A stretch of 64,000 bases of DNA. Origin: Liolophura sinensis. Its lineage: Eukaryota > Mollusca > Polyplacophora > Chitonida > Chitonidae. Below the pieces are notes generated by a model. That model was not told where the DNA came from, did not search any database, and saw nothing but the letters and a program-made list of their open reading frames with translations. Location: the NCBI RefSeq assembly GCF_032854445.1, contig NC_088304.1:4154001-4218000 (forward strand). Direction: 5' to 3'. Below are positions 18,501 to 64,000 of the stretch, piece after piece (the first letter of the stretch is position 1; every line of letters begins with the position of its first letter). Position numbers and translations under genes: made by a program.

Positions 18501-21500
18501 GTCTTTCTTCTTTGCCACAGTCACACTTCTTAGTGGACCACATTTTTCAAACAACTGAAGTTTCAACGAATATTGAATTAGATAGAATTAGCTCATCATT
18601 CTGGAATCTTAGATAAAACTACTTTTCGGAGGATGAAGAAACAGAGCTGAATCATACCACTCATTTATCAACAAAAACAGAATTATAACTACAAACGTTA
18701 TACAATAGTTACTGAATGAAGTGACCATTTATTACCTTACATAATAACATTGTAGATGTCCAGTTTATAAATAGTTTCTAACTATATATTTCTTTGTGAT
18801 TTTCAGAATCATTCTATCAAAGAAATGAGTACATTATTTTATGATTTATATCCTCAGAGCATTTTTCTGAACCAAACCTTTCTCAATCCATCCTCTCGTG
18901 TTTCAAAATTCAGATTTTTCACGAACAGAACATTTCCCTGGGGCGTGGCCTCCTCTTCACTATCGCTATCATTGTCCTTCTTTGTCTGTCAATCAAAATC
19001 GTACAGTGAATGACTGAGACATCCCCTGAGAGATATCACTATAGCCTGATATCACTATGACCTGTATTTAAGTCTTTGCTTTGATTTTCTCAGCAGCCAT
19101 TCCACCAATCTAACTGCCGACAGACCCAAGGAAATACAGTATCCAGTATCCAAATATTGCACATGCAAACCAGATAATCGTGACATCAAAAATCTTCTTA
19201 ATTTTCTTATGTTTTACATACTAGTTTGTACACCAACCGTACATGTACACCCATTACATCTCCAAAAGGATTTAGTGACAGTGCAGTGTCCAAATACCAG
19301 ACACTGTTAAATATTTAATTTGTTAATTATGGTTGTACTCCGGAGTATTTCTCTTACTCACTCAGTTGTCGTAGTGGAGGAAACCAGAGTGGCAAGAGAA
19401 AACTGGAGTGCTCAGAGGAAACCAGAGTGCCTGAAGAAAAAAGGGATGGCTGAAGGAAACTGGAATTCCATGAAGGAAACCGGAGTTCCATGAAGGAAAG
19501 TGGAGCGCCTGAAGGAAGCCAGAGTGTCAGAAAGAAACTGGAGTGCTGGAAGGAAGCCGGAGTACCTGGAGTGCCGGGAGAAAACCTATGCTTGGCAAGA
19601 AGGTGAGACTTTTCATGTGACGCATTGATTTTCATCCAAAAGAGAATTATTATGGAATACTAACGGAAGTATATAAAACCACCCAAAACATCCTAATGAG
19701 ACGTGACAAACTTTCATTGCCCACTAAAGTTTTTAGACCAAATGGAGACAAAGGGTTCTATAAAAATTAAAACTGAACCTTGTGTGTCCCACAGTTGCAG
19801 GGCAAGCACTTCAAATGCATGGCTTTGACTTGCGCCTTCTTTCAAATAAATTTCCTCCCACCATAATGCTGGTGATTGTCCTACGAGTGAAACAGTCTTG
19901 AGTACTGCATAAAACTCAAATCAAACAAATAAATATATCTTACAAAGAGAATGATATGGAAAGGGCAGTTTGTTCAAAAAGCTGACATCTCGGCTATTTG
20001 TCACATCTTTTCTTTTGAGACAGGACTTTTGCCTGAAGTTCATGGTCAGAACTTTACCTTAGCATCTTCTACATCTATGTTCTTCCCTTCCTCGTCTTCA
20101 CTCTTTGTACTTGTTGATGGTTGTGAATTTGGTCTTGGTTTCAAAGCTCCCATTGGTGCCCATTCTAAGTACAAGGGAACATGCTTGAACTGTGGAACAA
20201 AGAGTGAAAAGTGTCAATGGTACAAAGGAACATGCTTGAACTGTGGAACAAAGAATGGAAAATGTCACTGGTACATAGGAACATGCTTGAACTGTGGAAC
20301 AAAGAGTGAAAAATGTCCATGGTACGAAGGAACATGTTGAATAAAGAGTGAAAAATGTCAATGATACACAGGAACATGCTTGAACTGTGGAACAAAGAGT
20401 GAAAAATGTCACTGGTACACAGGAACATGCTTGAACTGTGGAACAAAGAAGGGAAAATGTCACTGGTACATAGGAACATGCTTGAACTGTGGAACAAAGA
20501 ATGGAAAATGTCACTGGTACATAGGAACATGCTTGAACTGTGGAACAAAGAAGGGAAAATGTCACTGGTACATAGGAACATGCCTGAACTGTGGAACAAA
20601 GAATGGAAAATGTCATTGGTACACAGGAACATGCTTGAACTGTGGAACAAAGAATGGAAAATGTCACTGGTAGAAAAGAAAATGCTTGAACTGTGGAACA
20701 AAGAAGGGAAAATGTCACTCGTACCCAGGAACATGCTTGAACTGTGGAACAAAGAAGGGAAAATGTCACTGGTACACAGGAACATGCTTGAACTGTGGAA
20801 CAAAGAATGGAAAATGTCACTGGTACACAGGAACATGCTGGAACTGTGGAACAAAGAATGGAAAATGTCATTGGTACACAGGAACATGTTTGAACTGTGG
20901 AACAAAGAATGGAAAATGTCATTGGTAGAAAAGAACATGCTTGAACTGTGGAACAAAGAAGGGAAAATGTCACTGGTACATAGGAACATGCTTGAACTGT
21001 GGAACAAAGAATGGAAAATGTCATTGGTACACAGGAACATGCTTGAACTGTGGAACAAAGAATGGAAAATGTCACTGGTACACAGGAACATGCTTGAACT
21101 GTGGAACAAAGAATGGAAAATGTCACTGGTAGAAAAGAACATGCCTGAACTGTGGAACAAAGAATGGAAAATGTCACTGGTACATAGGAACATGCTTGAA
21201 CTGTGGAACAAAGAATGGAAAATGTCATTGGTACACAGGAACATGCTTGAACTGTGGAACAAAGAATGAAAAATGTCATTGGTACACAGGAACATGCTTG
21301 AACTGTGGAACAAAGAATGGAAAATGTCACTGGTACAAAGGAACATGCTTGAACTGTGGAACAAAGAATGAAAAATGTCATTGGTACAAAGGAACATGCT
21401 TGAACTGTGAACAAAGAGTGAAAAATGTCATTGGTACAAAAGAACATGCTTGAACTGTGGAAAAAACAATACCGTATTTCCGCAGCCTTTTCACAAGCAG

Positions 21501-22945
21501 AGGGCACTAAAACTTTCAAAGAAGTCTTGGATGAATCCATGACAGGGAAATGGGGAGACTGGGCGTAATCCAGCTCGTGTAAGACACACATCTCGCACTG
21601 CCGGAGGTCTGACATGTAAATGCCTATGTGCCAAGCGACCTTGTACAACATCTGTCGGTCATCCAGCATTGCTGTGTGCTTGTGACTGTGTTTGGAAGTA
21701 GATGACCAATACTGGTCACTCATTTACCAGAAACATCAAGTCCAAGACAATTACAGACAACACGTGGTTGCCGTGTTCATTTCTCGATATAACAGCAATC
21801 GTATATTCTCGTGGCTGCATATGTATAAGGAGAATTACACAGCTGCCAAGCGCTTGCCGGCAAGGCGTTATTGTGTTGATCGCCCCAAAATTCACACCAG
21901 CTTATATCTCAAGTTCTAGGCGCGTATGCCTTAATTGACACAGCGTGTACATGCACTTACCTATGGCATATGACTGAACAGTCAGCCGGTTGAGCAAATA
22001 CATGTAGAATGTGATCCACCTAATCAAAACAATGACTCAAAAGTCAAGAGCTTTAACCAGCGGACTAGAACGAAACTCAAGTCTTGCTTGCTGTGTCATT
22101 CATTTCCTTTTTCAAACGAATATAAATAAATTATTTGAAATGTAACAGTTGGAGACTTTAGACCATGTTGTACGGTCTATAGCCACAGTTAAATGCGAGA
22201 TTGTTGTCACATTACATGTTATGCAGAGTTGAAAATACCTCACTGTGTGTACTAACTCAGACTAAGAATTTGAATGAAACTTGTCAGCCGTGTAGGCCTA
22301 AACCCGAGGGTTTCAAGCAGTCAATCTTTGTAGTCATGTAATCCTCAACAACAGACAGGTGTGGTGATGGGTGTGATCTTTAGCAGGATATGGGGATTAA
22401 GACAGACTTGTTAATCAAAGGCAGGATTAAACACTCATCTTTAATCTCTTAATCTCTATAGGAGTAGTTCTGACGCATGCATTCTGAAAAGCACACTCTT
22501 TATGCTTGGACTTTTTCATCTTTTCTTCGGAAAATAGTTACAAGATGCATGTAGAAGGAAAAGTTTCTAACCTGATTTATTTATTTATTTATTTGATAGG
22601 TGTTTTACGCCGTACTCAAGAATATTTCACTTATACAACAGCAGCCAGCATTATGGTGGGAGGAAACCGGGCACAGCCCAGGGGGAAACCCACGACCATC
22701 CGCAGGTTGCTAGCAGACCTTCCCACTTACGACCGGAGAGGAAGCCAGCATGCGCTGGACTTGAACTCACAGCGACCGCATTGGTGAGAGGCTCCTGGGT
22801 CATTACGGAGGCCAAACGGATGTGATATTTTAAAATTTCAAAATCCCCACTTACCTTTCCCAACCTGCGGACAACTTATGATATATACATAATGTATTAC
22901 AAAAATTTAAAGAAATCAAATGAAGATAAATGCAAAGCAAATTTT

Positions 22946-22994
<49 letters not shown>

Positions 22995-25900
22995 TATATA
23001 GATATATATATCAGATTGTCATATCAAATACATGAACATAACCATGGCTCTATTACTGATTTAATGAAGACAACTTTTTATACAGAAAACAAACTGGTAT
23101 TACTTAGTGTGTTTCACCTTAAGTTTGCTCTGACACATCAAAATGATAGTTTTAATGCCAACATTTAAGTTTTTTCTGACAAGAAATTTTAATCAAACTT
23201 CCAAATAAAGTCTTAAGTGGAGAATATGTCACTTTAAAAATGCAAAATTTTATGTGAAACACAGTATATTAGTTTTGAATGATATATTAACAAAATTCTT
23301 CGCTTTCTGTCCTTACTTCTAACAGATACATGACACCGACTCCAGAAAATCACTATACCTTGGTGTATGCAAGCTTTGTGAATGCTGCTCTAGCTTCTGA
23401 AGGTTCCAGGAATTCGACAACAGCCGTGATGCCAGAGGGAGGTAAAACTACTCGCCCAACACCACCATATTTGGAAAACACATCTCTGAGCTCTTCTGAC
23501 CTTGTGCCCACTGGCAAATTCTTCACAAGGATCACAGTTTTACTCCGAGCAGCAGACGGCTGAAAAAGCGTCAAAACTGGAATTAAATGCTATAAGTGGG
23601 CCACTTTTTAACTCAGAGTTGAAAAAAAACTCTTCTTAGAGCCTGATTCAGGTGTTTTTTGAAACCTTCTCAAGGGTTAGGGATGAGAAGTCTGGGATCC
23701 CAAAAGATAACATTTTCATATTTTTTGTGTTATTTGCATAAATGTACATACAAATGGTATAATTGAAAGTTTGCGAATCGAAAGGGTACCCATATTATTC
23801 ATAAAACTTAATCTTGAAAATCCTCTTAATTGTGGAAATTGCAGACGATTCCAGAAAGTATTCCTCTTTAAGTTATATTTACATGACGAGAAAGCCTAGA
23901 AACACAAAAAATCATTAACATTTGGCAAAACAAAAAGGTGTACTATTAGGGGTATTTCAAATTTCATTTTTGGATCTTTTAGTGTCGTCCAGCCCATAAA
24001 AGAGAAAATAAAATGATAATAAGTGAGGAATTCCTAAGGAAATGCAATGAATATGCTTTTGCACTTTTTCTACTTCTCACCTGGTTACTCGAGCCCAACT
24101 TTCTAATTCTAGATACGTTCAGTCTATGTCTATATGTACCTTCCCCTTTATATATGGAGAAAAACAAACTGATGTCAGTCAAAAAAAAATTTGCACTCTC
24201 TGGAGCAGTATCCTAAAGAGGCATTTATCAAGCTGCTTCATCGAATCATCAATATGTACCTCCATGTCCAGAGAGCTGGATCTGTGATCACCTTCAAACC
24301 CACATACCTGGCTGAAACAGTCCAGCTGTACACCGTTCTCTGTCAGGAAATCTCGTGTTTCTGAAACAACCTGCGTCTCCCCCAGGGCCATCCTCACCCC
24401 TAAACTCTGACTGGTGTCCTGAGAAAGAGGACAGGTAAATAACTACCTCACAGGCTTCTTGATTTGCATGCCACAGAAATGATGGCTACACAGAATTTTG
24501 AACCATTCTACAAATTTCTTAGCGAATACAGATAATTGTTAATTATAGATGTAACGAAATCCTTATTAGACAAACTCCAGCCTTTTAAAACAAAAAATCA
24601 GGAAAATAACAACAAATGACTGATGATTACAATTAATTGTTAACTGTTTTAAACAAATTTCTTAACTGATTATAAAGATCTTTAAAAATCAATATTGGGC
24701 ATAATCCAGCTTATTTTTTGTTTAAACAAAAAAAAATTCCGACATATAAAAAAAAGCTTGACCTACCACATTTAGAATTTGACTTTTAGAAGTGCCATAT
24801 TTGTCTGCCATAACATCTGCAACTGCATTAGCTCCCAGGAAAAGGGCATTCCAATTGTGTGAGCTGTGGATAAGTTACAGTTTTCAACTTACTCCGGTTT
24901 CATTTTTAACTTCTTGTTACAACAAATAAAACCTTCTGTCTTTATGATTAAAAGGGACATTGCATTGTCGCATATTCTTGAATATGGCATGAAACACTGT
25001 TTTATAAATCAAAAGGAAGATTCAAATTGCAATACACATTCTTGGTTGCTACACCTATTTCTTTAAACCTTTTCCCTTTTTGTTGTTAATTTCAATTTTT
25101 CAATAAAAATCTCCACTTTAATGACAACTGGTCTCCTAGGTTTATACCCTAGGAAAATAAGCTATAAAATAACCCATTTGACAGGCATGTTGTAAAGATT
25201 TTGAGTCTAAATTACCAGAAACAAATCAAAGCATCTTACATGTCATAAAAATGATTTTGCACTTACCTGTTTGCTGTAGCTTTCTGCTTTGCTGCCTTTT
25301 GCTTCTTATAAGATGAGTTTTCTAATGTAGTAATAAAAAAAAGATCAGTCAGTAAAGCCTGATCATCACATTTTGACTTCAATTATTACAATCTAATTGC
25401 ACTTACGTAGCGTGTGATTTTTGAAAGTGGACAGAAGTATATGTACCTCTATGTATGTATAGTGCAATGGCGTTACTACTGTTCTTCAACATTCAGTCAA
25501 ATTTATACAAATCATTAACAAGGACACTCAGAGGACATAATGTAACACCATTGTTATATCTATCACATTTTTGTTACAGTAAGTTCTAGATCCAATATCT
25601 CCATTAAGTGGCTTTTCAAATGAAGGACAAATTAAAATACTGACATTCAATTTCCTTTGTCACAGTTTGTCACTGTTGGCCTGAAATTATCACAAATGTC
25701 ACAGAAATGTTTTTTATTTTTAGGTGGGAGAGAGGGGATCAGATTTTTTCAATAACACTGAAATGATATAACAGTAATAGTGCTGCCTCTCTGATTCATC
25801 ACATCCAGACATATCCCACAAAGTCACAGTAAACTGACACTTATTTCGATCAGTCAGTGTATCGTACAGGTAGATTGCACTTATATAATTATCTACCTGA

Positions 25901-28900
25901 CTGGTGTTTTAGCCTACTTATTCCACTTATACAACAGCAGCCAGCATTATGGTGGAAGAAAAGCTGGCAGACGCCACAGGAAACCCACAACCATCTGCAG
26001 GTTGCTGACAGACCTTCCCACGTTCGACCAGCGAGAAGACTTGAACTCACAGCGATCGCATTATTGACAAGTTTATTTATTTATTTATTTGATCTTTTAC
26101 GCCGTACTGAAGAATATTTCACTTTTACGATGGCGACCAGCATTATGGTGGGAGGAAACCAGGCAGAGTCCGGGGAAACCCATGACCATCCGTAGGTCGC
26201 TGCCAGACCTTTCCACTTACGACCGGAGAGGAAGCCACATGAGCTGGACTTGAACTCAGGAACTCAGCATTGGTGACAGGATCCTGGGTGAATGTGATGT
26301 ACTTGCACGCTATCCATCACATTGGTTCCAAGTAGATTGTATATTGGGCACGTTGGTTGCATGTAAAATATGTATATTGGACACGTTGGTTGCATGTAGA
26401 TTGTATACTGGACACATTGGTTGCATGTAGATTGTATACTGGACACATTGGTTGCATGTAGATTGTATACTGGACACGTTGGTTGCACGTAGATTGTTTA
26501 TTGGACACGGTTGCATGTAGATTGTATACTGGACACGTTGGTTGCATGTATAATATGATCTGATTTGATCTGATCTGATCTGATCTGATCGGTGTTTTAT
26601 GCCGTACTCAAGAATATTAGCCAGCATTATGGTGGGAGGAAACCAGGCAGAGCCCGGGGGAAACCCTCGACCATCTGCAGGTTGCTGGCAGACCTTTCCA
26701 CTCGGGGTGAGTACATGCTGCCAAAATGCTGCTGCCACGGAGGTATCGTGCTGAAGACACCAGACATGACACCTGACCCACTCACATTATACTGACACCA
26801 GGCCAACCAGTCGCGTTTCCTAGCTTCTCAGTGCTGAGCGCCAAGCGAGGCAGTACTTTTTTAAGTTTTTGGTATGACCCGGCCTGGATTTGATCCCGGG
26901 TCTCCTAACTTCATGTTAGGTAGGATGGGTATAGCTAAGAATTTCAGTTTGGAACAGTTCCCATGGGGAGTCTGTCCAATGAAAGTTTGTACTGAAAGCT
27001 TTAAATTCACCTGTAATTTGTGTGTCTTCTTTCTTTGGCTTGCCTGGTAAAATATGCATCATTCTCCCCTGAAAAGTGAACATCACACACTGTCAATGAA
27101 TGTTTACACTCAAGTCCATCCTTACATATCCACACCCTTTACTGCCTTTAGTTAATACGGTCAAATCTGCTGTGGACCTACATGTAAGTTACATACTTTT
27201 CTTCACGTCAATCCTGACATGGCATAATGATTGCTGACAATTATTTTGATTTACAGTACTTTTGACATTTATTTATTTATTTTATTACATTTTAGCCGAT
27301 ACAAGATAAACATGATGTCAAAACTAATCAATTACTTTGATTTACCGCACTTTTAATTTTATTTATTTATAATTATTTATTTTATTACATTTAACACTGT
27401 AAACAATTTTTTTTGTTTCTTTTATCACATTTAAACACTGTAAACATATTTTTTTATTTATTTCCTTAAATTTAATCAATGTATACATCAATTTTTCTTT
27501 TAATGGGTGTAGTAAACCAGATTTCCTTGAGTAAACCATCGCCCTTTCTCACCTACCAGACAAACCCCATTTTAAATTTAAAAGCTACAGCCAAACAAGA
27601 ATGTACAAGCAAATGATGTACGTTTTATTATTAAGAATAAATTAAAATATTGCGGTGAGAACATGTTAAAGCCTGCTAAACCGGTAAGAGTTAGTTTCAA
27701 CACTGCGACCTCAATGACCAAGGTTTTAATCAACAGCAGGAAGAAGAATGTTGCAGCTTAATGAAACAGAAAGGCAGACCCATTCTTTAGGCGGTACAAA
27801 AGACTCGAGTAACTCACCAAGAACACTGTTCCATCTAGCTCAGTGTAAGCCTTTACAGCATTTTCTGGGATCATGAAGGTGATGTGAGCAAATCCTTTGA
27901 TCTTCTTTGTTATCTTGTCCACAGGTAGATTGACTTCTGTCAGCAGGCCTAACATAGAGAAGAGAACGGGAGGATGAGAATTGATCAGCATTCAGAAAAA
28001 CCATAACCCAGTGAGAAAATTTAGGGGGACCAACGAGCACCAGTCACACACCCAGCTGCAGCACCCTGGCATCATTTAACTGACATCAAATGTTTCTTTC
28101 TCACCTCATCATGATGGCAATGTTACAGTTGATGTATATATATTTTAACACTGCAGACGTTGCACTACAACCCATTTTTTACACAACCCTGGCTCAACGT
28201 CCTACTTCACACTACTGACACCTCAAGGAATTAAAAAAATAGACCACCTTCCCATTTGGTCTGTAAAACTAAGTTTTCCTGATAAGCTATATTTTGCACA
28301 AGCACATTAATGATAGTAGACATATCCCTGGCCAAGACAATGGCGAAGCAAACCAGGTCATTTGTTACCGGAAATCATTCATAGATGGTGCCAGAAGAGA
28401 TCACATTACTTCCTGGTCTGGCTGTGATTTTATGATTTTCACACTTCAGATTTCCCCACGTGAGCAGGCGAGAGCAAAATTCCGCGAAGGTTTTGGGCTG
28501 GAATTTTTCATCTTACATGCTACATGACAACAAAACATGGCAACATACAAAAAAGATTTGACGAGACTAAATTCACTATAAATCTCACACAATTTGGCCC
28601 TAATATACATATACAAATGTGAACAAATTTACCGTATTTGCTGAAGAGTTCCTCCAGCTGCTCCTCGGTGCAGACATACGCCAAATTCCTGACATACAGG
28701 CGACCTGACTCTACAATACCTTCTTCTTCTGTTCCATCATCAGATTTCTACATTATGCAGAAAAACGATAAAGAAATATCAATAACTGATCATTACTTAT
28801 GTTCTTTTCCCTGTAAGATGATAAATTTTTTTTTCCTTTTCAATTTTTAGCTGAAAGGACAGCATTGTTGTTTGTTGTTGTTGGAGATTTCTTGTTTGTG

Positions 28901-31900
28901 GGTTGCATTTCTGAAATATACATTAATCTCAGTTTGTGACTACACATTTGTCTTTTTCTTTCTAAGCCCTATATACCTACCACAAATGACAAAGACTGAA
29001 AATAGACAAACTTTATCCAAAATACAAGGGTAAGTTCAAATATGTCTGTATTAAAGCATAACGACATGGTATAAAGTAGGCAAAAGGTTTCAAAATCAAT
29101 GACTTGTATTATTCAAACTGTGGTTTTGGGGAAAGACAAATCCTATTACCTTCAGTTCCCAAGGACGAGGTTTTTGTGTCCGTGGTGTTTCTACATCTTG
29201 TATGATTTTATTCAAGAAAACTCTTTTCCCACCTGGAAACAAAAACATGTTTGATATAGGATAAGTTTGAAAAGTCACTCAGCAGCTATATGTAACAATA
29301 GGAATTTTACTTCTTTTTCGAGTGTCCACAGTAAACCACTTGCCTTTGGCAATTTAGTGACAAACTTTCCCACATGTGGCACGCATTTCCACACAAAGAG
29401 CAAAGGTCAATGTGTCTACCACATTAGTGAAAGGAAAGTGAAAATAATTTCTAATGTGCTTCATGTAAGACAAATTTAACCACTTTCAAACAGCATAGAA
29501 CACAGCAAGGCTACTGACTCCAATAAAACCAGGCCGCCAACAGTACACAACACAGCAAGGTTACTGACTCCAATAAAAACCAGGCTGCCAACAGTACACA
29601 ACACAGCAAGGCTACTGACTCCAATAAAAACCAGGCCGCCAACAGTACACAACACAGCAAGGCTACTGACTCCAATGCAACCAGGCCGACAACAGTACAC
29701 AACACAGCAAGGTTGCTGACTCCAATAAAAACCAGGCCGACAACAGTACACAACACAGCAAGGCTACTGACTCCAATAAAAACCAGGCCGCCAACAGTAC
29801 ACAACACAGCAAGGCTACTGACTCCAATGAAACCAGGCCGCCAACAGTACACAACACAGCAAGGCTACTGACTCCAATAAAAACCAGGCCGACAACAGTA
29901 CACAACACAGCAAGGCTACTGACTCCAATAAAAACCAGGCCACCAACAGTACACAACACAGCAAGGCTACTGACTCCAATAAAAACCAGGCCGCCAACAG
30001 TACACAACACTGCAAGGCTACTGACTCCAATGAAACCAGGCCGACAACAGTACACAACACAGCAAGGCTGCTGACTCCAATAAAAACCAGGCCGACAAAA
30101 GTACACAACACAGCAAGGCTACTGACTCCAATAAAAACCAGGCCACCAAAAGTACACAACACAGCAAGTTTCCTGACTCCAATAAAAACCAGGCCACCAA
30201 CAGTACACAGCACAGCAAGGCTACTGACTCCAATAAAAACCAGGCCGACAACAGTACACAACACAGCAAGGCTACTGACTCCAATAAAAACCAGGCCGCC
30301 AACAGTACACAACACAGCAAGGCTACTGACTCCAATAAAAACCAGGCCGCCAACAGTACACAACACAGCAAGGCTACTGACTCCAATAAAAACCAGGCCG
30401 CCAACAGTACACAACACAGCAAGGCTACTGACTCCAATAAAAACCAGGCCGACAACAGTACACAACACAGCAAGGCTACTGACTCCAATAAAAACCAGGC
30501 CACCAACAGTACACAACACAGCAAGGCTACTGACTCCAATAAAAACCAGGCCGCCAACAGTACACAACACAGCAAGGCTACTGACTCCAATAAAAACCAG
30601 GCCACCAACAGTACACAACACAGCAAGGCTACTGACTCCAATGAAACCAGGCCACCAACAGTACACAACACAGCAAGGCTGCTGACTCCAATAAAAACCA
30701 GGCCGACAACAGTACACAACACAGCAAGGCTACTGACTCCAATAAAAACCAGGCCACCAACAGTACACAACACAGCAAGTTTCCTGACTCCAATAAAAAC
30801 CAGGCCACCAACAGTACACAACACAGCAAGGCTACTGACTCCAATGAAACCAGGCCACCAACAGTACACAACACAGCAAGGCTGCTGACTCCAATAAAAA
30901 CCAGGCCGACAACAGTACACAACACAGCAAGGCTACTGACTCCAATAAAAACCAGGCCACCAACAGTACACAACACAGCAAGGCTACTGACTCCAATAAA
31001 AACCAGGCCGCCAACAGTACACAACACAGCAAGGCTACTGACTCCAATAAAAACCAGGCCGCCAACAGTACACAACACAGCAAGGCTACTGACTCCAATG
31101 AAACCAGGCCACCAACAGTACACAACACAGCAAGGCTGCTGACTCCAATAAAAACCAGGCCGACAACAGTACACAACACAGCAAGGCTACTGACTCCAAT
31201 AAAAACCAGGCCACCAACAGTACACAACACAGCAAGTTTCCTGACTCCAATAAAAACCAGGCCACCAACAGTACACAACACAGCAAGGCTACTGACTCCA
31301 ATCAAAATCAGGCCGACAACAGTACACAACACAGCAAGGATGCTGACTCCAATAAAAACCAGGCCGACAACAGTACACAACACAGCAAGGCTGCTGACTC
31401 CAATAAAAACCAGGCTGCCAACAGTACACAACACAGCAAGGCTACTGACTCCGACAACAGTACACAACACAGCAACGCTGCTGACTTCAATAAAAACCAG
31501 GTCGACAACACTACACAACACAGCAAGGCTGCTGACTCCAATAAAAACCAGGCGGACAACAGTACACAACACAGCAAGGCTGCTGACTCCAATAAAAACC
31601 AGGCGGACAACAGTACACAACACAGTACGGCTGCTGTCTCCAATAAAAACCAGGCCGACAAAAGTACACAACACTGCAAGGCTGCTGACTCCAATAAAAA
31701 CCAGGCCGACAACAGTACACAACACAGCAAGGCTACTGACTCCAATAAAAACCAGCCCGACACTGTTACAAGCTTACCTATAAAGTTTTTGTTTTTCCTC
31801 AAAGCTTGGTCCAGGTCTTTGTCTGTCAGAAATTCAATAAATGCTACACCTGAAAAAAAGGCATATCACAGGTATTAGAATAGTAAACAGTCTTATTATC

Positions 31901-56500: not shown

Positions 56501-59500
56501 TCTTGTTCGACTGTGCTCAACCACGAGCAGGGAGCCTTGCTTCACCGTCTTCCACTGGCTATAAACAGTTAGGGACAAAGTGGTGATGTGTCTTGAGTGA
56601 CCACATGGGGAGTCCCACAGCAACTGTAAAATATAAACACCAGGGTCAGATCGCGAGACGGGAATCATGACAATAACAAATGTGATAAGCAGACAGTGCA
56701 GTAAGCACTCATTACCGGTATATAGTGCAGCCGGCAACACAAATATTCCAAGTTCCCATAGACTGCATTTTCCAAATTAGTTTGTGTTTATTTATCTTCA
56801 CTTGTACGGATAATATATTCAGGTTGGAATTACCGAAATACCCTAAATTCTCAACCAGTAAAGTATATCTTTAGATACAATTTGAAAACATAATTCCAAG
56901 GACTAGAATTTATTTTTCAGACAGGAGTACATGTGAACTACACAGACATTATAAAGTAACATCTTTAAATGTAGATCAGATAATGTTTCTCCCATGTACC
57001 CAAACATGCACATAGATCGGCTGACGTTCCTCCCATGTACCCAAACATGCACCTAGGTTGGCTGACGTTCCTCCCATGTACCCAAATATGCACCTAGATC
57101 GGCTGACGTTCCTCACATGTACCCAAACATGCACCTAGATCAGCTGACGTTCCTCCCATGTACCCAAACATGCACGTAGATCGGCTGACGTTCCTCACAT
57201 GTACCCAAACATGCACGTAGATCGGCTGACGTTCCTCCCATGTACCCAAACATGCACGTAGATCGGCTGACGTTCCTCCCATGTACCCAAACATGCACCT
57301 AGATCGGCTGACGTTCCTCGCATGTACCCAAACGTGCACCTAGATCGGCTGACGTTCCTCGCATGTACCCAAACGTGCACCTAGATCGGCTGACGTTCCT
57401 CGCATGTACCCAAACGTGCGCCTAGATCGGCTGACGTTCCTCCCATGTACCCAAACATGCGCCTAGATCGGCTGACGTTCCTCCCATGTACCCAAACATG
57501 CGCCTAGATCGGCTGACGTTCCTCCCATGTACCCAAACATGCACGTAGATCGGCTGACGTTCCTCACGTGTACCCAAACATGCACCTAGATCGGCTGACG
57601 TTCCTCCCATGTACCCAAATATGCACGTAGATCGGCTGACGTTCCTCCCATGTACCCAAATATGCACCTAGATCGGCTGATGTTTCTCTGATGTACCCAA
57701 ACATGCACCTAGATCGGCTGACGTTCCTCCCATGTACCCAAATATGCACGTAGATCGGCTGACGTTCCTCACATGTACCCAAACATGCACCTAGATCGGC
57801 TGACGTTCCTCTTATGTACCCAAACATGCACCTAGATCGGCTGACGTTCCTCCCATGTACCCAAACATGCGCCTAGATCGGCTGACGTTCCTCCCATGTA
57901 CCCAAGCATGCACCTAGATCGGCTGACGTTCCTCCCATGTACCCAAATATGCACGTAGATCGGCTGACGTTCCTCCCATGTACCCAAACATGCACGTAGA
58001 TCGGCTGACGTTCCTCCCATGTACCCAAACATGCACCTAGATCGGCTGACGTTCCTCCCATGTACCCAAACATGCACCTAGATCGGCTGACGTTCCTCCC
58101 ATGTACCCAAATATGCACCTAGATTGGCTGACGTTCCTCACATGTACCCAAACATGCACCTAGATCGGCTGACGTTCCTCCCATGTACCCAAATATGCAC
58201 GTAGATTGGCTGACGTTCCTCCCATGTACCCAAACATGCACCTAGATCGGCTGACGTTCCTCCCATGTACCCAAACATGCACGTAGATCGGCTGACGTTC
58301 CTCCCATGTACCCAAACATGCACGTAGATTGGCTGACGTTCCTCCCATGTACCCAAACATGCGCCTAGATCGGCTGACGTTTCTCCGATGTACCCAAACA
58401 TGCACCTAGATCGGCTGACGTTCCTCCCATGTACCCAAACATGCACCTAGATCGGCTGACGTTCCTCCCATGTACCCAAACATGAGCCTAGATCGGCTGA
58501 CGTTTCTCCGATGTACCCAAACATGCACCTAGATCGGCTGACGTTCCTCCCATGTACCCAAATATGCATCTGTTGCAGATTTCGGGTAATATTGTATGCA
58601 AAAATACTTCTTAAACAGTCAATCCGCCAGAATACATCTCAATCTTGAACAGTCAGTCCACCAGTCCAAACAAATCATTGTAGCATCAGTTTGTTATTAA
58701 TTGTATACTTAAATTCCACTGAAAAAAAGTGCTTTAGTGGTTGAAAAGGCTGATGATTTACAATATGTTCTCACTTCACGGCTCTGAATGCTTTTTATTT
58801 TGATGCCTTACTTTGACTCCTGATGATAACAATTACTGTATTTTTAAGTGTTATTTTGTAAATTTATTCGTCAAAGTTTTTGATGTGTGCAATTTGACAT
58901 TGATCAGATGTGAAGACAGCCGCTCAGAATGACGTATTCACAGCCGTCCACACCCTGCTTATGGTTCTCTATGAGAGAGATTGTCGACGAGCTTTCACCC
59001 CTGGCGATTTCTGGATGATCAAGTGAGTCTGTGTCAAGGGGCAAATGTTTGTACCAGGGGTTATGGTATGCTGACATCTCCAACAAAGGGCTTTCAAAGC
59101 ATAGAAGTTTAAAACTATAGAGATAAGGTGAAGACTAATGTTTGGAACATTTGTGTACCTTTTGCATTTAACAAAGTACAGCCATCTTAAATATTTTATG
59201 CTGCTCTTAGATTTGCACTAACGTTTTTCTAACACATTTACTAGCACGGGTATTTAATAATTTTAGTCTTATCATATGGGATAAACTTTAAATCTGTTTG
59301 GTATTGAAGTGGTCCTTATTTGAGAGAAACTAGAGTGAATTTTTTAGAAATAGGAAGGAAATCTTCCAGGACAGAGTGGATATGATATAAAACACTATTG
59401 CTTGGAGTATCCTCGAAAACAAAATCATTTGTAGCTTCTGGCAATATGCCTGATGTGATATTGAATGAAGGAGACTTGATATTAACATCATAAGTCAACG

Positions 59501-62500
59501 TAAAAAGTTCTCAGAGGATCTCCAAAGACTGTGCTAATTTCCAGTCATACCCTCTGATATCTGTTACTTTCTTCCTCAGTTTACGAGCATCACAAAGTCA
59601 GCAACTGTTTGTCTTTGTAGGGAGGTGAAGATGAGCGTGTTTGTTTCGGAATTGGAAAAGGGGAGAAAGTCTGTCCAGTTTTTGATGCAGAGGGTACCTC
59701 ACGTGATTCCATTCAAAGAAGTAAGTATAGGGGTTAAGTGGCTGAGATGAGTTAAGTGGATGAACAGAAGTCGGGAGATTGTCCACGTTCTCCCTTTCTT
59801 AGCTGCTGGGCGGCAGTAATTGGGTGACACTGCTCATAAAGCCATTCAAGTGGTGGTACATGAAGTTTGCAGGAGATGACTTGCCTTACACTTATCTAGC
59901 AATACATATGGGAAAGCACACCAGTTACTGGGCCCAGCACTTCATAGTTTCCCAAAATAAATCAAATATTCTTGAGTACAGCTCCAATCACTAATCAATG
60001 AAATCCAATCAAATCCCAGGCTGAATTTTCATCTTACAAGGCAGCTATGAGGCTTATTGATTGAGGAACCTGAAGAAAGAATTTTAAAAAAACCCACTTT
60101 TCTATGGTCCAGATTAGGTTGCACCAAAACAACACTTTAAACACCCAAGTGTTAAGACAGCAACTGAATTTGATTAACAGAGGCAATTATGTTGAAACAG
60201 AATCCATGAATAACCACACAATTTGCTTTGATTTCAAGCGGTTTTATGACAATGTTTTATTGGTACACGTATTTAGTGTTTCAGTGCATCACGTATTTAA
60301 TGGTTTCTTGTGTAGAAATTCATGTAACATGCCATGAATTACTCTCTTCGATTGTGGAGGTACTGTTTGCTAATGCAAATCATACAAGGTTACACTGATA
60401 TTGCATGTTTGTTTCAGCGGGTGATAATGTTCAGGAAGAATGTAGCCAAAGAGAAGGACTTGTTGGGTCTGACAGAGAGTGCGCACGTGTCCCCTCAGTC
60501 TATCCCTGTCACTGTCCACAGGAGCAGGATCATTGAGGTTCGTGAGGCTCAACAGATAAACACTGTAGTATCCCGCCCCCCCACCCCACCAATCTACCGC
60601 CATCACTCTCCACAGGAGCAGGATACGTAACTTGCTTCTCTCATTACTGTACCTATATTTGTAATATTTTGATTTCTTTTGTTTGTTTGTTCGAAAAATC
60701 TGATATATATTTTTTCTCTTGTAGATATGAAATTTAATTGATTTCCATATTTCTGTGTGATTAAGGGAGAAGTTGGATTGGTATGTGTTACAAAAACCTC
60801 CAGATAACTCTTTAACGTCAAGGACTCTGTGAAAGACTACAACAACTGGTTGATGTCAGCTGCTTATTTAGAGTGGAATATTAATTTGGTAAAATGAAAT
60901 TTAATTCACATTTAGTCATCAACACAGAGTTATCTGATTTAATTTTCTTTTTCAATTTCAGGATGGTTACAGACAATTAGCCTTACTGAACCCAAACACT
61001 CTGAAGGGTATCATTAGAGTCAAGTTCATTAATGAGCAGGTGAGATAATGTTAAATAGAAGAAATTTTGAATGGATTCTTTATTAGCTTTTGAAGTTGAA
61101 AATTGTTTGTGGTAATAATTAATATGGATTTTTTAAGTACTGGAAAGTAGCTACGTCAGTACAGTTTGAATTGTGTTGTCTTTGGACTCGTCACATCATG
61201 TTCATGTGTTTTAACTGTTACTGTTGTAATGTTGTTTGCTAAGTTTGAATGATATCATGACATAAAGTTTATGTTGTCCTTTCTTTTAGTATCCTGAATG
61301 GCGTCTTGGCTTATTTCTGTTTGATTAACCCTAGTATTTGATGTTAGTATACTAAAGATATACTCTCATGTTTACTGGTCCTCACATGCACTGCTATTGA
61401 CATACTCCCTTGTGATTGGCCAGGGTCTTGATGAGGCCGGTATTGATCAGGATGGTGTGTTCAAAGAGTTCCTGGAGGAGACCATCGCTCGGGTGTTTGA
61501 TCCCTCCCTTAATCTGTTCAAAGTAAGTACCTGTCTAACATTCGTAGGCAAAGAAATACAGGTAGCTATGTCTGCAACGTAAAGGTAGTTCACTAAGGTA
61601 TAAAATGTGTGTTTGTTTTACACTTTTGATGTGTATATTGATGTTGATAACCACGACAACTGATGTCATGACCAGTGATAACCACGACCACTGATGTTCA
61701 TGACCATTGATGTCCATGACCACTGATGTCATGACCATTAATGTCCATGAACACTGATGTCATGACTGTATATGTCATGATCATTGATGTCATGACCACT
61801 GATGTCATGACCATTAATGTCCATGACCACTGATGTCATGATCATGAATCTCAGCATTGTGTTTGTGTGATACAGCAGTTATACATTTGACTGTGGCCTT
61901 GATTTAGACATTGGCATACAGTAATGGAACAGAAATAGTGAAGAAAGTAACATTAAACCCAAATTATAGAATTTGGTACCAATATATAAAATGAATACTC
62001 TCATAAACAAATATTCCCAAACTCAAAATCCTTTGTAAGCAAAAGTAATGTGGTTCACCTTGCAATTTATCTCCCTTTTTCCATAACTAAAGAAAACATG
62101 AACACAAAATAAAATCTGTCGTTAGCAAAATTGCCATATCCAGTATTACAGGGATGAGTATGAAATATTTGCATTGTAGGCCACCAGCGAGCAGAAGTTG
62201 TACCCGTCCCCGACCTCCTATATCCAGGAGAACCACCTATGTTTGCTGGAGTTTGTGGGCAAAATGCTGGGCAAGGCTGTGTATGAGGTAATCATGGAAA
62301 TAAATGTCACAAAATATTACTTTCAGTGCTGAAACTTACGATTTTCCAGTAGAATATCATCCCATGTTCCAAGCAAACTTCAATGTACCTTTCTAAAATC
62401 AATAGAATCAGGAAAAATGGGCAAGTTAGTCATGGACGTAATTTATGGTCATTTACGGTACATGTAGAAATCACAAGAGGTCTGTGGAGGCAGGTATTTT

Positions 62501-63543
62501 GACATCTGTCAAAGAGGTGATTTTTTTTATGGTCGTTCATTCCTTTGTCAGTAACTTCACAGAAATAGTTACACACCGATTTAGACGGCACTTTTTGCAA
62601 GGCGCAACTAAGGCAGTGCACCACTTCATTACATTTTCGTGGTGATCTGTACCTTCAAATTCAAATGCCTCATTATGAAAAAATTTGTAGGGTGAAAGTA
62701 AAAGAAAGCTAAATATGAAGTAGGTAAGATAATGGAAAACTATGCATAAAAATACTTTCACTTATTTTTTAAAGATTTTTTTAAGAGTGTTAAAAGGCAT
62801 ACAAATATTTGAATACTATGGTGGGCTTTTTGAGAAATGTGGACAGTGTCTAGGATATCTGACGTCCCATCACCTTTTTGTTTTCTGATGTTTACCAGAA
62901 GGAAGGAATTTTTGAGAACATTATTTCAGTAATCTTTTACTCGTGGGTAAAAAGAGTTATTCCAACATTCAGTGTGGTGATTAGAGTTGGATAAACTATC
63001 GGTGATGTCAAGAGCTCCTAACTTTTGATAGTATCATTCGTAAAGCCCACCTTAGAATTCAGTTGTTTGAGCACCTTTAACTCTTTTCACAAAAAGCTAA
63101 AACAATAAATGAAAGCTTATTTATGCATAGTTTTAAGTGGTCTATTTAGTGATGCCTACTTCGATTTTTAGAGGTCTTTTCCTTGAATGGTTTACAGGTG
63201 GTATACTAATGTCAGATTTGACATTTAGTTTCTTGTTTTGAAAACATGTCAGTATAAACCAGAGATAAGAATTGAAAACAGCCTTTGGCATCTTTCCTAC
63301 ATATGTTTAGTGACATTAATTTCCACAAAATGTGTTTGCTAAGCACCATGATATAGTCTGAGCAGATTTGAGACACCTGTGGTAAGTTTCTGGTTCTGGT
63401 TTCAGGGTATTGTGGTGGACGTCCCGTTCGCCTCTTTCTTCCTCACCCAGATCCTGGGCCACCAATTCAGCATGAACTACAGCTTCCTGGACGAACTGCC
63501 CTCTATGGACTCAGAGCTGTACAAAAGTCTTACCTATATCAAG
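41409..63543 (+). CDS. UBE3B: UBE3B homologue, HECT-type E3 ubiquitin ligase, 25 coding exons, 3' end beyond window
   Basis: 831 codons in frame. Exons: 41409-41522, 42084-42133, 43542-43612, 44864-44928, 45404-45460, 45964-46068, 48583-48682, 49109-49194, 49410-49492, 49922-50027, 50692-50812, 51456-51490, 51881-51910, 52538-52650, 53255-53403, 53617-53772, 54946-55120, 55643-55761, 58908-59022, 59621-59720, 60418-60537, 60962-61039, 61424-61522, 62180-62287, 63406-63543. The protein starts with a helical basic stretch and an IQ-like motif (residues about 33-50) as in human UBE3B. A long alpha-helical middle follows ([12 protein letters not shown] at 362-373, [13 protein letters not shown] at 599-611). 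The HECT N-lobe begins near 708 ([43 protein letters not shown]). The C-lobe with the catalytic cysteine (human total 1068 aa) is outside the window. HECT ligases pass ubiquitin from an E2 through that cysteine to substrate. Several introns hold arrays built from neighbouring exon edges. Confidence 0.95.
41915..41990 (-). mobile_element. short SINE-type tail of a second family
   Basis: (ATGA)n followed by GCTGAACGCCTTGTCAGCAA, TATTGCAGCCATATTG and GGCGATAGGC resembles a GCAATATTCCAGC-type repeat tail common in gastropods. A fragment only; the family call is from memory. Confidence 0.5.
42084..42133 (+). CDS. UBE3B: UBE3B exon 2
   Basis: Codes [16 protein letters not shown], completing the IQ-like motif begun by TKLQ of exon 1. 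Acceptor CTTTCAG, donor TCAG|GTATGA, ends in phase 2. Confidence 0.92.
42134..43541 (+). other. UBE3B: UBE3B intron 2
   Basis: Mostly unique sequence with a diverged SINE at its 3' end (43202). A plus-strand open stretch at 42485-42685 has no recognised domain. Confidence 0.5.
43202..43524 (+). mobile_element. diverged tRNA-headed SINE, second family
   Basis: A head-like TAGCGCAGTGATTTATGGCT with a B-box-like GAGGTTCAAGCCCGGC, a body of about 200 bp, and a tail GCGAAAAATTCTTTAGTATG then ATGTTAAACAGGAATCAACT and AATGAAT. The layout matches the element at 55868. Confidence 0.65.
43542..43612 (+). CDS. UBE3B: UBE3B exon 3 (its donor edge seeds an array)
   Basis: Codes [20 protein letters not shown] and LAP. 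Acceptor TTCGCAG, donor CCCCAG|GTACGG, phase 2 in, phase 1 out. Its last 16 bases plus donor form the first unit of the array that follows. Confidence 0.93.
43596..44427. repeat. UBE3B: 40-bp array made of UBE3B exon-3 donor copies, about 20
   Basis: Units of 39-41 bp read CCCCAGCTTTGTCCCAG then GTACGG and CTCTATATAGTCCATTAC. The first part copies the end of exon 3 (CCCCAGCTTGCCCCAG) and the GTACGG copies its donor. Nearly all copies keep CAG|GTACGG or CAG|GTATGG; one has CAGATACGG. The real donor is the first unit. A 40-bp unit would shift the frame if a later donor were used. Confidence 0.95.
44630..44752 (+). mobile_element. SINE 3' fragment
   Basis: GGTTTCCTCCACTGCCATAA, GAAATATTCTTGAGTGTGG and an (AAAT)n tail. 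Body diverged. Confidence 0.65.
44864..44928 (+). CDS. UBE3B: UBE3B exon 4
   Basis: Codes [20 protein letters not shown] and Q, matching human [20 protein letters not shown]. Acceptor TTGTGAAG, donor ACAG|GTTTGT. Phase 1 in, phase 0 out. Confidence 0.88.
45404..45460 (+). CDS. UBE3B: UBE3B exon 5
   Basis: Codes [19 protein letters not shown] (human RFEKLCRSILSSMDAEN). Acceptor ACTCCAG after a T-run, donor AAG|GTGTGT. Confidence 0.92.
45865..45935 (+). mobile_element. tail fragment of the second SINE family
   Basis: AAAATTGTCAGTGTGGCATT, AAGCCTTTAATC and (ATTC)n mirror the tail of the element at 55868. Confidence 0.5.
45964..46068 (+). CDS. UBE3B: UBE3B exon 6
   Basis: Codes [20 protein letters not shown] and [15 protein letters not shown] (human [34 protein letters not shown]). 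Acceptor ATTTCAG, donor AGA|GTAAGT. Confidence 0.95.
46160..48582. repeat. UBE3B: array of about 25 partial copies of the UBE3B exon-7 acceptor edge
   Basis: Long units (about 115 bp) read TGTCTGTCCTGTTTACAG, then GCCGAGTCCCACTCAGACAT, GAAGGTCATCACAGTCCACC, TCCACATGCTCTTCTCC and TCACACCTCCTGGTAATAAA. They copy the acceptor and about 65 bases of exon 7 ([16 protein letters not shown]). Short units of 97 bp dominate and lack about 17 bp covering the acceptor. Acceptors survive in copies ending at 46841, 48025, 48140, 48352 and 48467, then in the real exon at 48582. The array fills intron 6. Confidence 0.95.
48583..48682 (+). CDS. UBE3B: UBE3B exon 7 (terminal unit of the exon-derived array)
   Basis: Codes [20 protein letters not shown] and [13 protein letters not shown] (human [28 protein letters not shown]). 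Only this copy continues into TWKVLKGKA and the donor GCAG|GTAAGC; upstream copies stop at the CACCTCCTG stage. Ends in phase 1. Confidence 0.95.
48766..48913 (-). mobile_element. SINE 3' half
   Basis: (ATTT)n, GATTGGTGTTTTACACAGTA, AAGAATATTTCACTTATAC and ACCATCCACAGGCAGACC, reverse-oriented, head missing. Confidence 0.82.
49109..49194 (+). CDS. UBE3B: UBE3B exon 8
   Basis: Codes [20 protein letters not shown] and KGLYTLLQ (human [27 protein letters not shown]). Acceptor TTGCCAG, donor CAG|GTAAGC. Confidence 0.96.
49410..49492 (+). CDS. UBE3B: UBE3B exon 9
   Basis: Codes [20 protein letters not shown] and AIMTLAM (human [26 protein letters not shown]). Ends in phase 2 with ATGAG|GTAATT. 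Confidence 0.95.
49847..49885 (+). repeat. UBE3B: decayed duplicate of the UBE3B exon-10 acceptor edge
   Basis: CAATGTTTCAGGCTCCTTTT followed by AGCAACTGATT lies about 64 bases upstream of the real junction CTATGTTTCAGGCCCCTGTT with AGCCGCTGGATT. Acceptor and about 22 exon-like bases are shared imperfectly. Confidence 0.6.
49922..50027 (+). CDS. UBE3B: UBE3B exon 10
   Basis: Codes [20 protein letters not shown] and [15 protein letters not shown] (human [29 protein letters not shown]). Phase 2 in, phase 0 out. Confidence 0.96.
50047..50181 (+). mobile_element. SINE 3' half
   Basis: It follows the exon 10 donor by about 20 bases: AGCCTGCGGATGGTCATG, ACCATAATGCTGGCTGCCAT, ATTCTTGAGTAAGGCGTAAA and (AAAT)n. 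Confidence 0.85.
50692..50812 (+). CDS. UBE3B: UBE3B exon 11
   Basis: Codes [20 protein letters not shown] and [20 protein letters not shown] (human ESLEGCHTLCLMGNL). Acceptor CTTTCAG, donor CTGG|GTAAGT. Confidence 0.94.
50813..51455 (+). other. UBE3B: UBE3B intron 11
   Basis: AT-rich unique sequence; I see no repeat or exon. Confidence 0.5.
51456..51490 (+). CDS. UBE3B: UBE3B exon 12 (micro-exon)
   Basis: 35 nt coding [11 protein letters not shown], corresponding to human GNLLHLGSLSPRVLEEE. Acceptor TTAATTAG, donor GAG|GTAAGT. Phases agree with both neighbours. Confidence 0.9.
51881..51910 (+). CDS. UBE3B: UBE3B exon 13 (micro-exon)
   Basis: 30 nt coding [10 protein letters not shown], corresponding to human GFVSLLTQTL. 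Acceptor TTTTCCAG, donor ATG|GTAAGA. Phase 0 on both sides, so skipping it would keep frame. Confidence 0.88.
52222..52487 (-). mobile_element. complete tRNA-headed SINE
   Basis: Reverse-oriented: (TTTA)n, GATTGGTGTTTTACGCCATA, CCGCAGGTTGCTGGCGGACC, GAACTCACACGGACTGCATT (B-box side) and GCGCTAACCAACTGAGCCAC (A-box side), ending GGCCCC. Same family as 34206, in UBE3B intron 13. Confidence 0.93.
52538..52650 (+). CDS. UBE3B: UBE3B exon 14
   Basis: Codes [20 protein letters not shown] then [17 protein letters not shown], almost identical to human [20 protein letters not shown]. Ends in phase 2. Confidence 0.96.
52651..53254 (+). other. UBE3B: UBE3B intron 14
   Basis: Unique AT-rich sequence, no repeat or exon seen. 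Confidence 0.5.
53255..53403 (+). CDS. UBE3B: UBE3B exon 15
   Basis: Codes [40 protein letters not shown] and RIQTTSPSK (human [25 protein letters not shown]). Acceptor CTTTCAG, donor AAAG|GTAAGG. Confidence 0.95.
53617..53772 (+). CDS. UBE3B: UBE3B exon 16
   Basis: Codes [40 protein letters not shown] and [11 protein letters not shown] (human [20 protein letters not shown]). Donor GGGG|GTATGG, ends in phase 1. Confidence 0.94.
53868..54945. repeat. UBE3B: 106-bp array of 10 decoy copies of the UBE3B exon-17 acceptor edge
   Basis: Each unit has TTTGTTCTGTTACAG then GACTGAGTTATCAGGAGGAC, CTGTTACCTAACCTGTGGTA and a stretch to CCTGTGGTCT. It copies the acceptor and about 75 bases of exon 17 ([18 protein letters not shown] type), followed by a TGTGCTCAGTGTGTGTATG spacer. 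Exon-like starts fall at 53880, 53986, 54088, 54194, 54300, 54410, 54520, 54626, 54736 and 54840, then the real exon at 54946. All ten acceptors are intact. Unit lengths of 102-110 bp are mostly not divisible by three, so reading through from an upstream acceptor soon meets a stop. No good donor is seen inside the units. Confidence 0.96.
54946..55120 (+). CDS. UBE3B: UBE3B exon 17 (terminal unit of the exon-derived array)
   Basis: Codes [40 protein letters not shown] and [17 protein letters not shown] (human [25 protein letters not shown]). Only this last copy runs on into LKSFLEML and the donor CAC|GTAAGA. Ends in phase 2. Confidence 0.96.
55530..55561 (+). repeat. UBE3B: single upstream duplicate of the UBE3B exon-18 acceptor edge
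   Basis: TCATTATGTACAG then GATTTTAGATGAGGTGG is repeated exactly about 100 bases downstream at the true junction (AG at 55641-55642). The duplicate continues GAATTCTGCG where the exon has AAATCTTTGAG. Confidence 0.85.
55643..55761 (+). CDS. UBE3B: UBE3B exon 18
   Basis: Codes [20 protein letters not shown] and [19 protein letters not shown] (human [35 protein letters not shown]). Ends in phase 1 at ATGG|GTATGT. Confidence 0.96.
55868..56222 (+). mobile_element. tRNA-headed SINE of a second family
   Basis: The head has CCGATAGCGCAGTTGGTGGA (A box) and GGGTCAATCCTGGGTCGAG (B-box side). The tail reads GACTGAAAAATTGTTAAGTA, CGACATTAAACCCCAAGCAC and (TCAC)n. About 350 bp, in UBE3B intron 18, same strand as the gene. 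Confidence 0.85.
56985..58566. repeat. UBE3B: 41-bp tandem array, about 38 copies (UBE3B intron 18)
   Basis: Units read CATGTACCCAAACATGCACC, TAGATCGGCTGACGTTCCTC and C. Variants are mostly CpG-related (CACC/CACG/CGCC, ATCGG/ATTGG) and CCCATG/ACATG/GCATG. No similarity to exons 18 or 19 is seen. Confidence 0.96.
58908..59022 (+). CDS. UBE3B: UBE3B exon 19
   Basis: Codes [20 protein letters not shown] and [17 protein letters not shown] (human [22 protein letters not shown]). Phase 1 in, phase 2 out. Confidence 0.96.
59023..59620 (+). other. UBE3B: UBE3B intron 19
   Basis: Unique AT-rich sequence, no repeat or exon seen. Confidence 0.5.
59621..59720 (+). CDS. UBE3B: UBE3B exon 20
   Basis: Codes [20 protein letters not shown] and [13 protein letters not shown] (human LILQYIPHVIPHKN). 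Acceptor TTTGTAG, donor GAA|GTAAGT. Confidence 0.95.
60418..60537 (+). CDS. UBE3B: UBE3B exon 21
   Basis: Codes [20 protein letters not shown] and [20 protein letters not shown] (human [20 protein letters not shown] and ITIRRSRMLE). The donor GAG|GTTCGT is weak; it keeps phase 0 and the family match. The frame would stay open past it for about 30 codons with low-complexity sequence. Confidence 0.92.
60962..61039 (+). CDS. UBE3B: UBE3B exon 22 (HECT start)
   Basis: Codes [20 protein letters not shown] and KFINEQ (human [27 protein letters not shown]), the start of the HECT domain. Confidence 0.96.
61424..61522 (+). CDS. UBE3B: UBE3B exon 23 (HECT N-lobe)
   Basis: Codes [20 protein letters not shown] and [13 protein letters not shown], nearly identical to human [19 protein letters not shown]. 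Phase 0 on both sides. Confidence 0.97.
61640..61850. repeat. UBE3B: imperfect CATGACCACTGATGTC array (UBE3B intron 23)
   Basis: About 12 copies of an approximately 16-18-bp motif with ATTAATGTC, ATTGATGTC and ACTGATGTC variants, right after an AACCACGACAACTGATG start. Confidence 0.85.
62180..62287 (+). CDS. UBE3B: UBE3B exon 24 (HECT N-lobe)
   Basis: Codes [20 protein letters not shown] and [16 protein letters not shown] (human [30 protein letters not shown]). Phase 0 on both sides. Confidence 0.97.
62302..62460 (+). repeat. dispersed repeat, copy 2
   Basis: Second copy of the approximately 160-bp element at 35486-35652, in the same orientation, in UBE3B intron 24. The rest of that intron (to 63405) is AT-rich with nothing recognised. 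Confidence 0.85.
63406..63543 (+). CDS. UBE3B: UBE3B exon 25 (HECT N-lobe; donor edge seeds an array)
   Basis: Codes [40 protein letters not shown] and SLTYIK (human LPSLDSEFYKNLTSIK). Donor TCAAG|GTACAA. The last about 24 bases are the first unit of the array that follows. Remaining exons lie beyond the window. Confidence 0.96.
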
Positions 63544-64000
63544 GTACAAAAGTCTTGTCCACACTTCACCTCTATTTTCAAATGTCTCACTTAAATCAAG
63601 CTTAGTACAAAAGTCTCACTTATCTGAAGAGTACAAATGTCTCACTTATCTCAAGGTACACAAGTCTCACTGATCACAAGGTACGAAAGCCTCACTTCTC
63701 TCAAGGTACAAATGTCTCACTTATCTGAAGAGTACAAATGTCTCACTTATCTCAAGGTACACAAGTCTCACTTATCACAAGGTACGAAAGCCTCACTTCT
63801 CTCAAGGTACAAATGTCTCACTTATCTGAAGAGTACAAATGTCTCATTTATCTCAAGGTAAACAAGTCTCACTTATCTCAAGGTACAAATGTCTCCCTTA
63901 GCTCAAGGTACAAATGTCTCACTTATCTGAAGTGTACAAATGTCTCACTTATCTCAAGGTAAACAAGTTTCACTTATCTCAAGGTACAAATGTCTCCCTT
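63519..64000. repeat. UBE3B: 25-bp array made of UBE3B exon-25 donor copies, about 18, running off the window
   Basis: Units TACAAATGTCTCACTTATCT then CAAGG copy the exon end TACAAAAGTCTTACCTATAT then CAAGG. Many copies keep CAAG|GTAC, like the real donor. Others read GAAGAGTAC or CAAGGTAAAC, altering or losing it. The far end of the array is not in the window. Confidence 0.94.

Follow-up and report, generated by a model that had tools for sequence, protein, structure and literature searches.

Genes and repeat arrays of the window

The window analysed here, a stretch of 64,000 nucleotides from the chiton Liolophura sinensis (assembly GCF_032854445.1, contig NC_088304.1, positions 4,154,001 to 4,218,000 of the forward strand), contains RBM19 on the minus strand and UBE3B on the plus strand, arranged head to head, and five minisatellites whose repeat units cross an exon edge of one of these genes. 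The arrays, at exon 19 of RBM19 and at exons 3, 7, 17 and 25 of UBE3B, were proposed in a first-pass annotation of the sequence and are all confirmed by Tandem Repeats Finder (TRF), with which arrays were called, and by spliced protein models, from which the exonic overlap was taken (Table 1). Three acceptors and two donors are hit, and the units hold 17, 21, 25, 56 or 73 exonic bases, within the range of 16-75 given by the annotation. The unit homology of the exon 25 array reaches 25 bases into the exon, its TRF core (63579-64000) begins 36 bp into the intron, and the array runs about 74 bp past the end of the window. At exon 7, 18 of the 24 units are without the 18 bp that hold the acceptor.

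The RBM19 gene was first located with a human protein and its edges were then defined by three orthologous proteins; an RBM19 of L. sinensis itself was not found among the best 120 proteins listed. For UBE3B, the edges were read from the annotated L. sinensis protein by spliced alignment; this protein also placed three residues at the acceptor of exon 4 and sets the end of exon 25 by continuing in exon 26. The spliced model (828 residues) matches 'ubiquitin-protein ligase E3B-like [Liolophura sinensis]' (100% identity and coverage), the next matches reaching 66%; this annotated protein, which may derive from another version or assembly, agrees with the predicted use of the terminal units at the array-bearing exons.

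TRF reports 33 merged arrays in the window, and 19 of these are minisatellites (smallest period at least 10) within the two gene spans; arrays outside the spans, as well as a TA run and a 5-bp array in the two genes, were dropped before counting. When array consensuses were compared with the exon edges within 3 kb, a check that the first-pass annotation had proposed, the five named arrays alone showed edge-crossing homology (scores 49-150) exceeding that at random positions (300 per array, maxima 18-29). The remaining 14 cross no edge: three abut one and eleven do neither, including a 1.6-kb array in a UBE3B intron for which no edge within 3 kb beat the random-position maximum. An excess of merely abutting arrays is not supported (3/14 against 1.27 expected, P 0.12). 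Edge crossing is thus not the rule that it had been taken for, being found in 5/19 arrays of the window and 6/25 elsewhere.

It had also been argued that the copies always lie on the intron side and that the functional exon edge is always the terminal unit. Both statements hold, but they describe a geometric necessity in any working gene: in a repeated unit made of an intron end and an exon start only the last copy is contiguous with the exon, and terminal position and side therefore cannot count against chance.

The direction from exon edge to array is supported for the four UBE3B arrays by the conservation of residues encoded in the exonic part of their units. In 24 related proteins, of which most carry molluscan names while some belong to other phyla or are unnamed, identity is 0.629 over the 60 residues that these arrays cover, compared with 0.609 at other UBE3B exon edges (0.56, 0.50, 0.70 and 0.75 for the single array edges). 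Given that these residues are as conserved as those at other edges, the coding edge is older and the array derives from it, and the same comparison suggests, as had been supposed, that selection holds the terminal unit. Leakage of array homogenisation into the protein is not supported by it.

Table 1. Genes, array-bearing exons and tandem arrays. Positions refer to the window, except for the last two rows, where they refer to the locus named.
Feature	Position	Strand	Description
RBM19 exon 19	20058..20189	-	acceptor at 20189; acceptor edge is the terminal unit of array 1
Array 1	20169..21470	-	51-bp unit with acceptor and 21 exonic bases; 25 junction copies, 25 with AG
UBE3B exon 3	43542..43612	+	donor at 43612; donor edge is the first unit of array 2
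Array 2	43596..44425	+	39/40-bp unit, 79-bp dimers, with 17 exonic bases and donor; 21 junction copies, 20 with GT
Array 3	46189..48638	+	24 units of 97/115 bp with acceptor and 56 bases of exon 7; junction kept in 6
UBE3B exon 7	48583..48682	+	acceptor at 48583; acceptor edge is the terminal unit of array 3
Array 4	53857..55018	+	about 106-bp unit with acceptor and 73 bases of exon 17; 11 copies of the junction, all with AG
UBE3B exon 17	54946..55120	+	acceptor at 54946; acceptor edge is the terminal unit of array 4
UBE3B exon 25	63406..63543	+	donor at 63543; last 25 bases homologous to the array 5 unit
Array 5	63519..64000	+	25-bp unit, 101-bp higher order, with donor; 13 junction copies, 13 with GT
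RBM19 gene	15447..38227	-	25 coding exons, modelled on three orthologous proteins by spliced alignment; end of the last exon approximate
UBE3B gene	41409..64000	+	exons 1-25 in the window; exons 26-30 beyond its end (locus L019)
Abutting array	18132..18253	-	units resemble the pyrimidine tract of the RBM19 exon 22 acceptor; ends 4 bp before the exon
Abutting array	29499..31762	-	begins 15 bp past the RBM19 exon 10 donor; without homology into the exon
Abutting array	36274..36667	-	begins 21 bp past the RBM19 exon 3 donor; without homology into the exon
Counter-example array	56985..58568	+	41-bp unit in a UBE3B intron
L021 array	6428-6631		66-bp unit spanning the C-terminal coding end and stop codon of a HECT gene
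L023 array	8039-8715		98-bp unit spanning the coding end and stop codon of a HECT gene

Edge crossing compared with random seeding

Expected numbers of crossings were obtained by placing the array units at random in the gene spans, excluding positions wholly inside an exon or covering a whole exon or intron. On the present map of the window, the five crossings compare with 1.0-1.7 expected (P 0.0017-0.021), on a map with the arrays collapsed with 1.4-2.3 (P 0.0068-0.068), and among the nine arrays of about 350 bp or more with 1.2 (P 0.0024). Guanine-cytosine (GC) content was rejected as the cause of the excess, which survives GC-weighted seeds (1.45-2.01 expected, P 0.005-0.039). The window was picked for the pattern, and all of these P values are post hoc.

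A second sample, not chosen for arrays, was derived from 62 HECT matches in the genome, giving 20 stretches, to which the upstream DNA of UBE3A and UBE3C and three stretches of myosin genes (from 81 myosin matches) were added. The 22 stretches counted comprise 93,268 bp, 140 splice edges and 25 arrays, only arrays with periods of at least 10 bp that lie between the first and last anchored exon being considered. Six of the 25 cross a splice edge, with 1.3-2.1 expected (P 0.001-0.012): one at the acceptor of UBE3B exon 28, two at UBE3A acceptors, two at an acceptor and a donor of the HECT gene in locus L024, and one at a myosin donor. UBE3C gave no crossing among three arrays in its reliably aligned part, a forced N-terminal alignment and one array there being excluded. 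A fixed rule that requires an overlap of 8 bp or more between array and exon match gives 5/17 crossings at the HECT loci, including one at a stop codon, compared with 1.11 expected (P 0.0026). Taken together, the two samples hold 11 crossings among 44 arrays, compared with 2.6-3.8 expected (P 2e-5 to 7e-4).

The second sample is sensitive to how its edges were read. One UBE3A acceptor and the myosin donor escaped both the fixed rule and the ends of the hidden Markov model (HMM) matches and were recognised later, by exact alignment or inspection, and most other edges of this sample were not refined likewise; the strict count of 4/25 gives P 0.036-0.14. We therefore regard the second sample alone as suggestive rather than firm. 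These figures bear on the alternative that random tandem duplication in gene-dense DNA, filtered by selection, brings arrays to exon edges without any excess. It would be favoured by the choice of the window, by its most lenient null (2.3 expected, P for at least five crossings 0.07) and by the strict count, but the similar fraction in a sample not chosen for arrays and the result of the fixed rule at the HECT loci stand against it, and we consider it quite unlikely. The pattern is real and unlikely to be chance; the view that the five cases are no accident is borne out by the window and more weakly, under the strictest count, elsewhere.

Two further arrays of the second sample abut an edge. 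TRF ends the one at 6874-7401 of locus L019 about 5 bp before the acceptor of the last UBE3B exon, and the one at 2278-2939 of locus L013 25 bp before a UBE3A exon acceptor, and homology into the exon was found for neither; both resemble the case of RBM19 exon 22.

Splice junctions and stop codons

The excess of crossings over random seeding in both samples, which in the window outlasts GC weighting, could point to the splice junction as a specific seed, as the first-pass annotation had supposed, some feature of it (shared AG|GT words, RNA-DNA hybrids or co-transcriptional repair) promoting duplication. Two HECT genes argue otherwise, as their stop codons lie inside arrays of the same kind. 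The array of locus L021 counts as a crossing under the fixed rule but not among the six of 25, whereas that of L023 falls outside the second sample as delimited above and is the less certain case, the coding tail past the HECT domain being only read in frame. Stop codons inside arrays number 2 among the 15 examined in HECT genes, a rate per edge not lower than that of splice edges (11/237, Fisher P 0.18), and splice signals thus do not seem to be required. In addition, 33 of the 44 arrays cross no splice edge, the exon 7 units are numerous although most are without the junction, and several arrays, three of them in the window, abut an edge without holding the junction. Seeding by the junction itself is accordingly an explanation that we hold to be unlikely. 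The pattern does not hold as a rule for the region and is not clearly tied to splice sites.

Decoy splice sites

The arrays do form the ladders of decoy splice sites that had been described, with intact signals beside the terminal units. A search for copies of the junction, with up to 10 mismatches allowed over 28 bases and copies without the junction left uncounted, found 25, 21, 6, 11 and 13 copies in arrays 1 to 5, that is, five functional sites and 71 decoys. The AG or GT is intact in 70 of these 71, and 58 equal or exceed the functional site when scored with matrices derived from the remaining edges of RBM19 and UBE3B. For 70 of the 71, use in splicing is predicted to give an extended exon that contains a stop codon; the coding sequences upstream, on which this prediction relies, are free of stops.

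Such decoys might suggest that the ladders have a function, in adjusting splicing or in sending UBE3B and RBM19 transcripts into nonsense-mediated decay, all the more as nearly all those detected are intact and strong and would add stop codons. Their intactness is, however, partly built in, given that copies were found by their similarity to the junction; many other columns of the units are also invariant (from 5/22 to 31/38), and the units are unrelated between the genes, so that a function of this kind appears very improbable. Proximity and exon definition would favour the terminal copy, which is presumably the one chosen in splicing, with correctly spliced RNA as the probable outcome.

With a conserved exon flanked by as many as 25 acceptors of almost the same sequence, these loci constitute a natural experiment on site choice by the spliceosome. 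They are also places where gene models and RNA mapping may fail.

Origin and maintenance of the arrays

We contend that the arrays are probably minisatellites of the type named mirages in amphioxus, tolerated wherever one outermost coding copy suffices and anchored by that selected copy. According to this explanation, the chiton genome would often form tandem duplications of short segments. Those wholly within an exon would alter the protein and be removed, whereas a segment straddling a boundary between coding and non-coding DNA (an acceptor, a donor or a stop codon) could be duplicated harmlessly, since only the copy contiguous with the coding sequence must work. The array could then grow by slippage or unequal exchange, and selection would retain the outermost copy, so that an array at an edge would never be fully lost, could re-expand, and would come to be longer and over-represented. 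The spliceosome would be expected to take the copy that gives the shortest exon, nearly every decoy found being one that would add a stop codon.

Several features of the arrays are in keeping with this sequence of events. Their higher-order periods (79 bp as 2 x 39.5 and 101 bp as 4 x 25) fit slippage and unequal exchange, and arrays at edges are longer, with a median of 830 bp compared with 192 bp for the rest (P 0.0006), as expected if a selected terminal copy blocks complete loss. We infer that the arrays grew by slippage or unequal exchange and that anchoring may have caused the excess of crossings.

A number of observations weigh against this explanation, and the strict count of the second sample is one of them. 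Adjacent units exceed distant ones in similarity by very little (0.924 compared with 0.905 and 0.889 compared with 0.864), and in exons 3 and 25 the relation is reversed. Among the four arrays tested (exons 19, 3, 17 and 25), the terminal unit is the most divergent only in exon 25; it is the third lowest of 25 in exon 19 and unremarkable in exons 3 and 17. Homogenisation of the units is weakly supported. The units at edges are themselves longer (median 51 against 26.5), which confounds the comparison of array lengths, and the stop-codon cases number two. The random-seed null, moreover, lacks the excess, which implies that something beyond tolerance is needed, a part for which anchoring is our proposal.

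An origin from a shared mobile element or transposon was considered and finds no support: a pairwise comparison of the units of 13 arrays showed no relatedness, the best local score of 23 falling among the maxima obtained at random positions. The arrays are almost certainly no artefact of assembly either. Repeats of this kind are well known to cause assembly errors, but the high-fidelity (HiFi) reads behind the assembly (GCA_032854445.1; 609.5 Mb in 632 scaffolds, 14x coverage) have a mean length of 8.3 kb (PMC11068029), which exceeds that of the longest of the five arrays, 2,450 bp. Individual copies, moreover, can be told apart by variants and are arranged in higher-order periods, and similar arrays are present at other loci. 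The species name attached to this assembly has since been corrected to L. sinensis (PMC12441733).

If anchoring is general, selected coding edges might act as permanent anchors of minisatellites throughout chiton genomes, a large share of the long genic arrays being anchored at exons or stop codons, kept alive by selection on one terminal unit, and providing a lasting source of new introns, of exon extensions and of splice sites that are normally cryptic. This is a tentative extension, which we consider possible rather than probable.

Other features of the window

Two long minisatellites lie outside both genes, at 203-2143 (36-bp unit) and 12813-13958 (104-bp unit). A KCTD-like gene at 4779-5468 on the plus strand has its BTB and KCTD C-terminal domains (Pfam) together in a single exon, in one open frame. 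In exon 24 of RBM19 (minus strand, about 15977-15981) the conserved frame shifts by one base beside a T run, and the model of this exon loses conserved residues that are still visible in a second frame; the shift could be genuine, allelic or due to a sequencing error.

Comparison with known systems

Arrays built from exon edges are not a new phenomenon. Under the name of mirages they have been described in amphioxus, in Adh3 (in a 2002 paper, as cited) and in the globin genes BflGb6 and BflGb9 (PMC3087553), and a further mirage was reported in PGBD5, with mention of Adh and troponin C (PMC3902484). According to the cited passages, mirages consist, like the arrays studied here, of tandem minisatellite-like copies spanning an intron-exon boundary, with 5' as well as 3' boundaries affected (PMC3087553, PMC3902484), with AG or GT in many but not all units and with one authentic unit contiguous with the exon. 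The host differs, a cephalochordate for the reported mirages and a mollusc here, but it is not part of the structure. Copy numbers differ as well, BflGb6 being described with six and three units in two haplotypes, compared with up to 25 junction copies in the chiton. In amphioxus the boundary unit is reported to be excluded from homogenisation, which is clear in only one of the four chiton arrays tested. Reverse-transcription polymerase chain reaction suggested regular splicing in amphioxus, as described there; for the chiton, regular use of the terminal unit is the expectation. The stop-codon cases and the estimate of enrichment set the chiton arrays apart from the amphioxus mirages.

Other systems share part of these features. 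The variable internal tandem repeats of human segmental duplications, as characterised in the cited passages, have units of about 30 bp on average and lie in some cases at exon-intron boundaries; unlike the chiton arrays, they occur in recent primate paralogues, with 27 intron modifications, reported novel introns and mostly alternative transcripts, and they average about four copies, in contrast to the long ladders beside conserved genes in the chiton (PMC2812944). The Rogers model, in which introns are gained through tandem duplication of an AGGT proto-splice site, likewise involves extra splice signals at exons (as outlined in PMC3087553). In the chiton, by contrast, the annotated protein is matched by the spliced model of UBE3B, and a new intron position was neither looked for nor found. 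Ordinary intronic minisatellites, represented by 14 of the 19 arrays, share tandem organisation and higher-order periods in the same genes and are without edge homology.

A molluscan report of such arrays was not found in literature searches on minisatellites at splice boundaries and on chiton genomes, as far as the texts returned by these searches go. What is new here is the occurrence in a mollusc, the estimate of enrichment, the share of about a quarter of the sampled genic arrays (11/44) and the stop-codon cases. The proposed route from a mirage to a new intron becomes testable in another lineage, and the recurrence in a mollusc suggests that mirages may be a general outcome of the frequent birth of minisatellites combined with selection on one copy, rather than an oddity of lancelets.

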